Positions 3,273-18,195 of a stretch of 35,215 nt of DNA are shown one piece after another (positions within the stretch are counted from its first letter, which is position 1; each line of letters begins with the position of its first letter). The notes under the pieces were generated by a model that was not told where the DNA came from, did no database searches, and saw nothing but the letters and a program-made list of their open reading frames with translations. The stretch comes from a virus. The stretch covers positions 1-35,215 of IMG/VR virus record IMGVR_UViG_3300030060_003772. The stretch is one strand, 5' to 3'. A program made the translations under genes and the position numbers.

Positions 3273-3335
3273 TTTCTAATAATTTTCTTGACACCAGATC
3301 CCAAAATATCAAACGTGGCGTAGGGTTTCCACTGT

Positions 3336-3854
3336 TTACGAATCAGATTTAGTTCTAAAATCAGATTCGACCATTGTTTGGGACTTATGTTTTTCCCTAC
3401 TATATTCACCTTTTTCATAGTCTATACACAATTTACCATCTAAATGGTCCAGTTCGTGTTGAACACATCTGGCCGCTAGATTGTAAAATGTCTTTGTTTG
3501 CTCCTCTCCTTTCTCATCTTGGTAGTTTAGAGTAATTCTAAGGTACCTTTTTACTTCTCCTCTTTTGCCTGGCGCAGATAAACACCCTTCAAAATCAATC
3601 ATAGATTCTTTAGATTTTTTATATAATACAGGATTAATAAATACTTGTGGATTGGTACCACTTCTAGTGCAATCCATTACAAATATTCTACGTTGGTAGC
3701 CTACTTGTACGGCTGCTAGGCCAATACCATGATTTTTATACATCATTTTAATCATCCATTTAATTAATCTTGCGGTTTTATCATCCAAAGGAAACTTAAC
3801 AGGGGACGACACTGTTCTTAAAAATACATCTGGATATGTTACTATATCTGTCAT
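3336..3854 (-). CDS. def: Peptide deformylase (172 aa)
   Basis: The enzyme removes the N-formyl group from new bacterial polypeptides. All three signature motifs are intact: GIGLAAVQ (43-50), EGCLS (89-93, metal-binding Cys91) and QHELDH (132-137, His133 and His137 metal ligands, Glu134 catalytic). Unlike some short phage deformylases it has a C-terminal extension rich in charged residues (DYEKGEYSREKHKSQ). A GTG at 3890 would add 12 Trp/Arg/Lys-rich residues, but ATG 3854 matches the usual MxxIVxYPDxxLR beginning and is preferred. It probably helps mature phage or host proteins during infection. It is the last gene before the repeat-rich region. Confidence 0.92.
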   Translation of the reverse strand: MTDIVTYPDVFLRTVSSPVKFPLDDKTARLIKWMIKMMYKNHGIGLAAVQVGYQRRIFVMDCTRSGTNPQVFINPVLYKKSKESMIDFEGCLSAPGKRGEVKRYLRITLNYQDEKGEEQTKTFYNLAARCVQHELDHLDGKLCIDYEKGEYSREKHKSQTMVESDFRTKSDS

Positions 3855-5315: not shown

Positions 5316-5382
5316 ATAACTTTTTTATTTTTTTAAAAATATATAAAGGCAAAAGACCTAGTAATAAAAAATCTCCTATCAT
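5296..5382 (-). CDS. Tiny membrane peptide (28 aa)
   Basis: ATG 5382 overlaps the stop of the homing endonuclease gene as ATGA. The peptide MIGDFLLLGLLPLYIFKKIK plus KLYGKIKK is one hydrophobic stretch followed by a basic tail, the layout of a single-pass membrane peptide. It ends 20 bases inside the next gene. Too short for family assignment; support is the overlap and the membrane-like composition. Confidence 0.5.
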   Translation of the reverse strand: MIGDFLLLGLLPLYIFKKIKKLYGKIKK

Positions 5383-5855
5383 TCTAAATGCATTATCTCC
5401 TTGTACTCTTGTAAACTCACAACCTTATTATTCATTACTCTATTATTCTTATCGGTATAATGGTCTATAACTTTTTGAATTTTAGGTAGTTTTGTATGGG
5501 CGTAGGGAAATAATAAACAACACACGTAGAACGCGTCTCTAAAAGTGCAACGCCATCTGTATTGCATTAAATACTTTGTACCATCTACTCTTTTTCCTTT
5601 ACGTGGTTTTTTAGTCAACGTACCTACACCAAGGATTTGATGAGTCCATTCTAGTACTGATCTATCGGTCATTGTAATTTCCATACTGATACGCATCGAA
5701 TTAGATATTCTATGACCAATTCCTTTATGTTTCTTTTTCTTTTCCGGTCCGCGCTTATAGTGTATCGAACCTTCTCCGTCGAATAGACCAGAAATATAAG
5801 CTAATTCATTATCTTTCATCTTCGTATAAAATTTGTTCCTTTCCATCATAGTCAT
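5379..5855 (-). CDS. LAGLIDADG homing endonuclease, free-standing (158 aa)
   Basis: The motif LAYISGLFDGEGSI (about residues 18-31) is a classic LAGLIDADG helix with its terminal acidic residues. Only one such motif is present, so the enzyme should act as a dimer on a near-palindromic target. The rest fits the alpha-beta fold: ISMEITMTDRSVLEWTHQILGVGTL and a basic loop KKPRKGKRVDGTKY. There is no intron or intein boundary around it, so it is free-standing between two very small genes. Several in-frame ATGs exist (5855, 5849, 5846, 5819); 5819 would cut the overlap with the 52-residue gene to 11 bases. It likely spreads itself between related phage genomes. Confidence 0.85.
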   Translation of the reverse strand: MTMMERNKFYTKMKDNELAYISGLFDGEGSIHYKRGPEKKKKHKGIGHRISNSMRISMEITMTDRSVLEWTHQILGVGTLTKKPRKGKRVDGTKYLMQYRWRCTFRDAFYVCCLLFPYAHTKLPKIQKVIDHYTDKNNRVMNNKVVSLQEYKEIMHLE

Positions 5856-5967
5856 AATAATAACCAGATACTTTTTTCTTTTTTCTATTATATTTCTTTT
5901 TAGATTCTACTCTTCTTTGTTTATATTTAGGCGTTCTCAGGTCTTTGGCTACAACGTTTTTTGTCAT
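5809..5967 (-). CDS. Small highly basic protein with Tyr-rich tail (52 aa)
   Basis: ATG 5967 overlaps the previous stop as ATGA. The product reads MTKNVVAKDLRTPKYKQRRV followed by ESKKKYNRKKKKVSGYYYDYDGK. The N-terminal pattern A-K-D-L-R-TPKY-x-Q-R-x-V-x-x-K-K-x-YNRK is a common small protein of pelagiphage-like genomes; function unknown, perhaps RNA or DNA binding. The gene overlaps the homing endonuclease reading frame by up to 47 bases. Confidence 0.65.
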   Translation of the reverse strand: MTKNVVAKDLRTPKYKQRRVESKKKYNRKKKKVSGYYYDYDGKEQILYEDER

Positions 5968-6146
5968 TGTAGCCTGGCCTGTTTAGTCATCTCTTGTAAT
6001 TCTTCATAGGTTGGCTCTTCTAATGAGAGCTCTCCTTGAGACTTACATTTACCACACTGAACAATCATATCATAAATTTTGATATAACCATTCCCATTAC
6101 ATTTATCACAAATGTATTTGTGATTAGCTGTTTTTATCTTTGCCAT
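5964..6146 (-). CDS. Small zinc-ribbon protein (60 aa)
   Basis: The protein has two Cys pairs, ICDKCNGNGYI and VQCGKCKSQGEL, spaced like half of a DnaJ-type zinc finger (C-x2-C-x-G-x-G, then C-x2-C). I choose ATG 6146 instead of an upstream ATG at 6194 because AAAGGTG lies at the right distance and the longer form would overlap the RHH gene for 71 bases. The acidic tail EEPTYEELQEMTKQARLQ is helical. Likely role: metal-stabilised nucleic-acid or protein binding. Confidence 0.7.
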   Translation of the reverse strand: MAKIKTANHKYICDKCNGNGYIKIYDMIVQCGKCKSQGELSLEEPTYEELQEMTKQARLQ

Positions 6147-6297
6147 TTGTTTTTGCACCTTTGTTGTCTTTAAAAAATCTAATAAGTCTTCCAATCATTT
6201 TAGAGCGAGTTCTATTAGTTTTTTGCGCAAGAATAGTAAGATCTTCCCAGTCTTTTTTAGGTACTGATAAAGATTTATATTTAGCAGGGTCTGCCAT
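6124..6297 (-). CDS. Ribbon-helix-helix DNA-binding protein (57 aa)
   Basis: The sequence KYKSLSVPKKDWEDLTILAQ, then KTNRTRSKMIGRLIRFF has the beta strand, helix A, turn and helix B of CopG/Arc/MetJ-type repressors: alternating K-Y-K-S-L-S-V in the strand and a Ser/Lys-Met helix. A basic tail follows. ATG 6297 has a good AAAGGAAC ribosome site. Such proteins bind operators as dimers and often repress their own operon. Candidate targets in the window are the palindromes at 6448-6464 and 1449-1465 and the repeat cluster at 3052-3272; this is inference. It overlaps the zinc-ribbon gene by 23 bases. Confidence 0.75.
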   Translation of the reverse strand: MADPAKYKSLSVPKKDWEDLTILAQKTNRTRSKMIGRLIRFFKDNKGAKTNGKDKNS

Positions 6298-6358
6298 TTT
6301 GTTCCTTTCTTTTAATTGTTCTTCTCATATATGGGAATTTACAATAAAAAAACAAGTG

Positions 6359-6387
6359 TTGCAAGTATTATTTTTTTAATATATTAT
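6359..6387 (+). promoter_or_regulatory. Possible plus-strand promoter ahead of the hairpin RNA
   Basis: TTGCAA (6359-6364), 17-bp spacer, TATTAT (6382-6387). The region is AT-rich, so chance matches are expected. It matters because a strong plus-strand hairpin begins about 15 bases after the predicted start and no plus-strand gene follows. Confidence 0.3.
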
Positions 6388-6408
6388 TTAGATCTCTTCT
6401 CACACCTT

Positions 6409-6444
6409 TTGTTTGTTCGTCCCTTTCTTGGGACGGACAGACAA
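6409..6444 (+). ncRNA. Strong 15-bp RNA hairpin, candidate plus-strand small RNA
   Basis: Arms 6409-6423 (TTGTTTGTTCGTCCC) and 6430-6444 (GGGACGGACAGACAA) pair over all 15 positions around the loop TTTCTT. Two pairs are G-U if the plus strand is transcribed; on the minus strand the same positions are A-C mismatches. The fold is therefore a plus-strand RNA structure lying in a minus-strand gene block. The Irr-like palindrome follows at 6448-6464 and would add a second short hairpin. There is no long U run, so it is not a standard terminator. Confidence 0.5.
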
Positions 6445-6447
6445 GGA

Positions 6448-6464
6448 TTTAGAATGATTCTAAG
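6448..6464. promoter_or_regulatory. Irr/ICE-like palindrome, copy 2
   Basis: TTTAGAATGATTCTAAG, identical to 1449-1465 and in the same orientation. It overlaps the stop codon of the 6460-6672 gene, as copy 1 overlaps the stop of the 1259-1453 gene. See copy 1 for the match to the iron control element. Confidence 0.5.
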
Positions 6465-6672
6465 TTTCGTGAATTCCAGAACAAGAAAACGTAATAGATA
6501 TTTTATGTTTATTGACCTCAGTAGGACCAATTTCTTTTAATTTTCTAGCGGCTTCTTCGTAGCCAAATATACTACAATCATAAGCCGTATCAAATTGCGT
6601 AGGCCATTGGTATGGTGGTAAACAATTGCCGCTTACATAGCTGCACATTGTTAGTAATAACACAAATTTCAT
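6460..6672 (-). CDS. Small exported Cys-containing protein (70 aa)
   Basis: MKFVLLLTMCSYVSGN is a short signal peptide with likely cleavage after V-S-G. The mature part starts CLPPYQWPTQFDTAYDCSIFGYEEA and ends FSCSGIHET, giving Cys residues suited to disulphides in the periplasm. ATG 6672 overlaps the previous stop as TAATG. The pattern CLPPYxWPxxFDxxYDCxxxGYEEAxxKLxEIG recalls conserved proteins of marine podoviruses. Function unknown; a periplasmic role in superinfection exclusion or lysis is possible. Confidence 0.72.
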   Translation of the reverse strand: MKFVLLLTMCSYVSGNCLPPYQWPTQFDTAYDCSIFGYEEAARKLKEIGPTEVNKHKISITFSCSGIHET

Positions 6673-17968: not shown

Positions 17969-18129
17969 AAAAGAAACATGGCGGAGCACAACAAGAGTCC
18001 ATGTTAATAAAATATTATGCTGATCAATGGTGTAGAGATAATGGCTATCCATTGCAAAAAAGATATTATAAGACCGTTAGTAGGCGTCCAAGTTCTGCAG
18101 TATTGCGTTCCACTGTACGTCAGCGATGA
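17959..18129 (+). CDS. Small basic hypothetical protein (56 aa)
   Basis: ATG 17959 overlaps the previous gene's end by 10 bases, the same spacing seen at the junction before. The product reads MQVKKKHGGAQQESMLIKYY, ADQWCRDNGYPLQKRYYKTV and SRRPSSAVLRSTVRQR. The first 35 residues look natural; the Ser/Arg end runs into a GC-richer patch. The segment may resemble the start of small VRR-NUC-type proteins, but no catalytic residues are present. Tentative. Confidence 0.5.
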   Translation: MQVKKKHGGAQQESMLIKYYADQWCRDNGYPLQKRYYKTVSRRPSSAVLRSTVRQR

Positions 18130-18151
18130 CCTGAAAGGGTAGCAACGAAAG

Positions 18152-18195
18152 CGGCGCCAGCCACGTTAGTACGTGCACGGAAAGCGTGGGGGCCG
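18152..18195 (+). ncRNA. Possible structured RNA with competing hairpins
   Basis: Between two convergent operons, a GC-rich patch has CACG at 18162-18165 and 18176-18179 and CGTG at 18172-18175 and 18185-18188. These allow either two tandem hairpins (loops TTAGTA and GAAAG) or one long stem where CCACG pairs CGTGG and CGGC (18152-18155) pairs GCCG (18192-18195). No gene, tRNA signature or ribosome site is present. Function unknown. Confidence 0.35.

Follow-up and report, generated by a model that had tools for sequence, protein, structure and literature searches.

CopG, the repressor that accompanies RNAII of plasmid pMV158, is a ribbon-helix-helix (RHH) protein, and the sar gene of phage P22 adjoins arc, an RHH repressor gene. 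In RNAII of this streptococcal plasmid, a single hairpin with a 6-nt loop follows a single-stranded 5' tail of 17 nt, and this tail is the part essential for binding; the RNA inhibits repB, to which it is antisense, and has a U-rich end (PMC4485353). P22 sar is a phage small RNA of 68/69 nt that pairs with the ant mRNA of its own locus (PMC12197685). PreS of phage lambda and VpdS of phage VP882 are small RNAs encoded by phages; both are bound by Hfq and have host mRNAs as their targets (PMC12197685).

Here we describe a locus in the IMG/VR virus record IMGVR_UViG_3300030060_003772, the 35,215 bases of which are called the window below. By its sequence it is a small RNA gene, previously undescribed and carried by very many uncultured marine phages that are kin of SAR11 phages. 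The RNA resembles pMV158 RNAII in being very small, in its 17-nt tail and single hairpin with a 6-nt loop, and in the company of an RHH gene. The anatomy is thus of the CopG/RNAII type, an RHH-like gene beside a tail-plus-hairpin RNA, with an RHH call that lies below the Pfam cut-off. Unlike RNAII, the RNA is divergent from the RHH gene, its stem has 14-15 bp and its tail is near-invariant, and in the window clade it has no U-run in place of RNAII's U-rich end. Nor is it antisense to the mRNA of the RHH operon, as in the CopG/RNAII arrangement, and its pairing with the leader of that mRNA was no better than that of controls. Like P22 sar, it is a phage small RNA adjoining an RHH gene; however, no antirepressor gene opposes it (a small Cys protein or another gene is found instead), and the opposing gene faces the RNA with its stop codon, not its start. 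To PreS and VpdS, which belong to other phages and hosts, the likeness is in the proposed mechanism alone. No family of Rfam 15 matched the locus at the gathering threshold, and a search to E 10 returned chance-level matches only (E 2.5 to 6.1). The RNA is classed here as a new family among phage small RNAs, contained in no Rfam family.

Anatomy of the small RNA locus

The features of the locus in the window are the following.

5964-6146, minus strand: small zinc-finger-like protein with CxxC motifs, downstream of the RHH gene (start chosen by inspection)
6124-6297, minus strand: 57-aa ribbon-helix-helix (CopG/Arc-like) protein, divergent from the RNA
6336-6341, minus strand: -10 box TAAATT of the divergent minus promoter, which shares the -35 box at 6359-6364; conserved in relatives
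6359-6364, plus strand: -35 box TTGCAA, a palindromic hexamer that doubles as the -35 box of the divergent minus promoter
6382-6387, plus strand: -10 box TATTAT, separated from TTGCAA by a 17-nt spacer
6393-6446, plus strand: small RNA (match to covariance model R1, 77.4 bits)
6393-6415, plus strand: invariant 5' block TCTCTTCTCACACCTTTTGTTTG; 6393-6408 form the single-stranded tail and the remainder opens the stem
6409-6444, plus strand: stem-loop of 15 bp with the 6-nt loop TTTCTT
6460-6672, minus strand: convergent Cys-protein gene (70 aa), with its stop 15 bases beyond the hairpin

The RNA of about 52 nt follows a sigma-70 promoter and comprises the 17-nt single-stranded 5' tail UCUCUUCUCACACCUUU and the 15-bp hairpin. 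Its 5' end is predicted from the promoter position at about 6392-6393, where the invariant block begins. The functional 3' end is probably at about 6444-6446, as suggested by the hairpin itself and by the opposing stop codon. In relatives the hairpin ends at or near this codon, which bounds the RNA at about 52 nt. No U-run and no terminator-like site were found in the window RNA. A U-run intrinsic terminator is common in small RNAs and is not a strict defining feature of them.

A first-pass annotation of the window had placed the hairpin arms at 6409-6423 and 6430-6444 downstream of the two promoter boxes, and these coordinates are correct, as is its observation that the two U-G pairs (6413-6440 and 6417-6436) become A-C on the minus strand. 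It had missed the 5' tail block (6393-6415), the most conserved part of the locus. The promoter-like TTGCAA-17-TATTAT lies where it had been described, yet as a match on its own it is weak (4 such sites in 600 bp vs. 2.5 expected), and it becomes credible through its conservation in relatives. A second short hairpin reported just downstream (TTAGAATGATTCTAA, 6449-6463) exists, but its strict form is present in only 15 of 140 relatives and it is therefore not part of the element. The annotation also saw no plus-strand protein gene; the local plus ORFs are indeed chance frames, and a plus ORF of at least 60 aa starting within 350 nt was found in only 11 relatives.

The plus-strand consensus reads TTG[C/T][A/C]A, 17 nt, TANNNT, about 5 nt, the invariant block, and the upper stem with its loop. 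Among 55 relatives less than 85% identical, TTG at -34 to -32 relative to the invariant block is conserved at 95-100% and the A at -29 at 96%, and T and A at -11 and -10 at 98% and 96%. All 23 positions of the block are conserved at 98% or more in these 55 relatives, which were largely fetched by its first 19 nt. The promoter stands at a fixed distance from the RNA in both clades described below, as judged by conservation.

The RNA is nearly always divergent from a small RHH-like gene, and the two have the -35 box in common; this box is palindromic (TTGCAA or TTGTCAA/TTGACAA). Of 136 window-clade relatives, 88 have a gene of the RHH family in this divergent position. The window protein is a weak RHH match (Pfam RHH_1, E 0.0044, 17.4 bits, under the curated cut-off of 20.5), and the zinc-finger-like protein has weak DnaJ/Anti-TRAP/Q-like matches. 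The Cys protein (phrog_19893) has a signal-like start and four invariant Cys in an otherwise variable sequence; a member of its family adjoins the RNA at 105 of the 131 window-clade loci, with other genes in this place elsewhere. In both clades a conserved CCC immediately follows the -10 box of the minus promoter (6333-6335 in the window; the sister clade reads TATAAT-CCCATA), and the common -35 box together with this CCC (6330-6364) may form a joint switch or a discriminator. A homing-endonuclease-like gene (HNH/LAGLIDADG matches) lies near the locus at 5379-5855.

Distribution among marine phages

The DNA polymerase of the window shares 88% identity with that of phage 023Pt_psg01 (MW574966), and 55% and 51% with its counterparts in the cultured Pelagibacter phages HTVC027P and HTVC023P. 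From this kinship only we infer that SAR11 is the host of the window phage. The first relatives were loci retrieved through the 57-aa RHH-like gene, among which the same RNA element was seen repeatedly. A scan with the most constant 19 nt of the element found it in at least 120 IMG/VR viral contigs. After collapsing, the window-clade set contained 146 unique sites, and among the matches listed 55 were less than 85% identical. The same 19-mer had one match in 84,980 bacterial and archaeal genomes, on a contig (L310) of a Winogradskyella metagenome-assembled genome (MAG). Since this short contig shares the neighbouring genes of the element, it probably comes from a phage of this group, and its assignment to the MAG is likely a binning error.

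Because the 19-mer scan itself selects for the 19-mer, we also examined an independent sample of loci picked by their DNA polymerase. The RNA was present in all 13 loci with a polymerase at least 73% identical and at least 3.4 kb of sequence downstream, with 0-1 mismatches in the 19-mer, and 6 further polymerase-anchored loci with shorter flanks carry it too. It was not found in the complete genomes of the cultured phages HTVC027P and HTVC023P, hence some related phages can do without it. For HTVC027P, a phage without the RNA, RNA-seq data exist (PRJNA1253180; PMC12753301). In this phage a Cys-protein gene, inverted relative to its usual order, occupies the RNA's place beside the RHH gene (L312, 11295-11820). 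Scanning with the hairpin pattern alone, which is degenerate and palindromic, gave many chance matches and also recovered true relatives; an alignment of the MKF protein offered no conserved stretch usable for scanning. The covariance-model matches in loci L379 and L380 were rejected, as they lie inside a coding gene and that of L379 has no proper stem; each of these two loci has its own RNA-like element upstream of the RHH gene.

The same group of phages carries a further RNA. The Rfam Flavobacterium-1 RNA (RF02976) matched the window at 18074-18194 on the plus strand (65 bits), the SAR11 phage isolate HTVC027P (L312, 17753-17873, minus strand, 90 bits) and another record (G001; L474, 5364-5485, minus strand, 102 bits); no match was found in 023Pt_psg01. 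These three matches place Flavobacterium-1 among the phage RNAs of the group as well.

Structure, covariation and the selected strand

The plus strand at 6359-6490 folds at -36.3 kcal/mol, compared to -21.6 (sd 3.3) in shuffled sequences (z -4.4; 0 of 200 shuffles as good). The stem is freely rewritten among relatives, with 24 different starts in 55 relatives, up to 6 pair types per position and 15% G-U. Pairing-breaking changes without compensation in relatives, named in the first-pass annotation as a ground for refutation, would have spoken against the RNA; the comparison did not refute it. In 20 distinct gap-free sequences, 96.1% of 280 pair cells were paired (76.0 in shuffles) and 8 of 14 pairs showed double changes, with 49 double-change cells compared to 11.6 in shuffles. 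The covariation score of this plus alignment was 0.625 (0.226 for shuffles). When the partners were slid out of register, pairing fell to 39-45%. Reading the same columns as the minus strand lowered pairing to 83.2% and covariation to 0.428, because the G-U pairs become A-C. In addition, the plus fold beat the minus fold in 50 of 55 window-clade relatives (-24.1 vs. -17.2 kcal/mol). As the G-U pairs would be A-C on the other strand, selection acts on the plus-strand RNA. This comparison shows a predicted plus-strand RNA structure under selection, with an invariant 5' block ahead of a hairpin whose sequence is freely rewritten.

A sister clade with intrinsic terminators

With a covariance model of the window clade, a diverged copy of the element was found in two loci (L386 and L387) whose polymerase is only 65% identical. 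At the L386 locus a TTGACA promoter is followed by ACUCUUCACCUUUAUAUG, a stem-loop and six U, and the locus reads as a textbook small RNA with an intrinsic terminator (GTTACCGGCATTTTTT). As in the window, it is divergent from an RHH-like gene that is followed by a zinc-finger-like gene; its opposing gene differs from that of the window. A search upstream of RHH homologues yielded a sister set of 58 unique loci, 39 of them less than 85% identical. This set was anchored on TTGACA, and TATT[A/T]T at 16 nt was not imposed; TATT[A/T]T at a fixed spacer of 16 is nearly invariant (95-100% at 5 of 6 positions). The plus strand folds better in 37 of 39 sister members. Their tails are related but variable, around UCUUC[U/A]CACCUU, and differ in length and spacing. 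The promoter-plus-tail pattern matched 79 contigs, in 76 of which the RHH gene is divergent. A U-run was present in 11 of 37 unique sister RNAs within the bases examined.

The first-pass proposal of a plus-strand small RNA is thus borne out by covariation, strand-specific G-U pairs, a promoter at fixed distance and the intrinsic terminators of the sister clade, and we regard the locus as almost certainly a real small RNA gene.

Possible partners of the 5' tail

An invariant tail beside a free stem implies that the tail meets a fixed partner, while the stem need only be a stem. Given the likeness to pMV158 RNAII, the tail of which binds and inhibits, we propose a trans-acting RNA that pairs through its tail. 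A small regulatory RNA with the tail as seed in trans is, in our judgement, the best explanation of the whole and a fairly probable one; action in trans by base pairing is likewise somewhat favoured. Several target searches were carried out. The exact complement of the 19-nt sequence was absent from 84,980 genome representatives, except for the phage-like contig L310, in a search that covers pairing over the full 19 nt. Across the whole window and 023Pt_psg01, duplexes were no better than those of shuffled seeds; at phage mRNA starts of eight phage sequences, they were no better than those of shuffled or swapped seeds; and E. coli rRNA offered no target for the tail. In record G002 (L404, about 3300-3350) a small conserved gene (MNKDKKRIANL) has a start region with which the tail pairs strongly, at -24.1 kcal/mol; because the orthologous starts in other phages do not have the sequence, this candidate was rejected and the site was treated as chance.

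Other explanations were weighed against this proposal. One of them has no functional RNA at all, the hairpin being a chance or DNA-level inverted repeat (operator or cruciform) in the space that separates two genes. This would suit the neighbouring divergent promoter, whose -35 box is palindromic, and RHH proteins bind DNA repeats. We consider this reading very improbable, since the stem is rewritten with compensation, G-U is kept on one strand only, and some relatives have true terminators. The first-pass annotation had suggested an antisense RNA against the minus transcript. In its fuller form the RNA would pair with minus read-through from the upstream gene into the RHH gene and uncouple both; it is fully complementary to any such read-through (-32.7 kcal/mol for the tail), and the 15-bp hairpin adjoins the opposing stop codon. 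However, this complementarity is automatic and survives any sequence change, so it cannot explain an invariant 23-nt block beside a changing stem. Moreover, the opposing gene, which lies upstream of the RHH gene, differs between the clades and in other lineages, and in L237 the Cys-protein gene is on the same strand as the RNA. An antisense function was therefore not retained, and cis-antisense action seems unlikely. This L237 gene (4240-4560) is inverted relative to the usual order and follows the RNA on its strand.

An autogenous pair, in which the RNA would be a seed-bearing antisense regulator of the divergent RHH mRNA leader, is a distinctly unlikely reading. In the window leader, UGAGAAGA is complementary to UCUUCUCA of the tail, and the leaders of the divergent genes have a mean z of -1.57, compared to -0.21 at other phage starts; but 29 of 300 shuffled seeds did equally well on the same leaders, the sister clade's own seeds were no better than swapped ones, and UGAGAA occurs in only 14 of 49 leaders. 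The main rival, which we hold to be rather unlikely, accepts a real RNA and makes its tail a protein-binding site that serves as a decoy or sponge for host S1, Rho or Hfq or for the phage RHH or zinc-finger protein. The tail has no G, is C/U-rich and unstructured, the RNA-target searches found none, and RHH and zinc-finger genes accompany the RNA in both clades. Yet the strict order of 23 nt exceeds the needs of a general pyrimidine binder, and the varying length and spacing of sister tails fit a changing RNA partner as well.

Proposed mechanism

For the trans-acting RNA we propose the following. The host sigma-70 RNA polymerase would transcribe the regulatory RNA of about 52 nt from the phage genome. 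The hairpin would stabilise it and, where it is a terminator in part of the sister clade, also end it. The 17-nt tail would be the seed, acting in trans on one or a few mRNAs by pairing with their purine-rich ribosome-binding region, at a consensus of about AAGGUG-x-GAAGA near start codons. The mRNA would most likely be a host one, and that the target is a host RNA is offered tentatively. Pairing would change the translation or decay of the target mRNA, and the two divergent promoters, which would compete for the shared -35 box, would be balanced by this competition and by the RHH protein. It is conceivable, at a similarly tentative level, that the RNA is a trans-acting riboregulator of an entire lineage of abundant marine phages, its seed frozen on one conserved host RNA and retuned in the sister lineage.

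A family this common, in which a near-invariant block stands next to a stem whose sequence is almost unconstrained, amounts to a clean natural experiment. The partner of the block has to be a fixed one, and the variation of the sister clade offers a route to it, which is to look for matching changes. RNA-level takeover of SAR11 would become testable. If the proposal is true, the phage would reprogram a very abundant ocean bacterium through RNA pairing.
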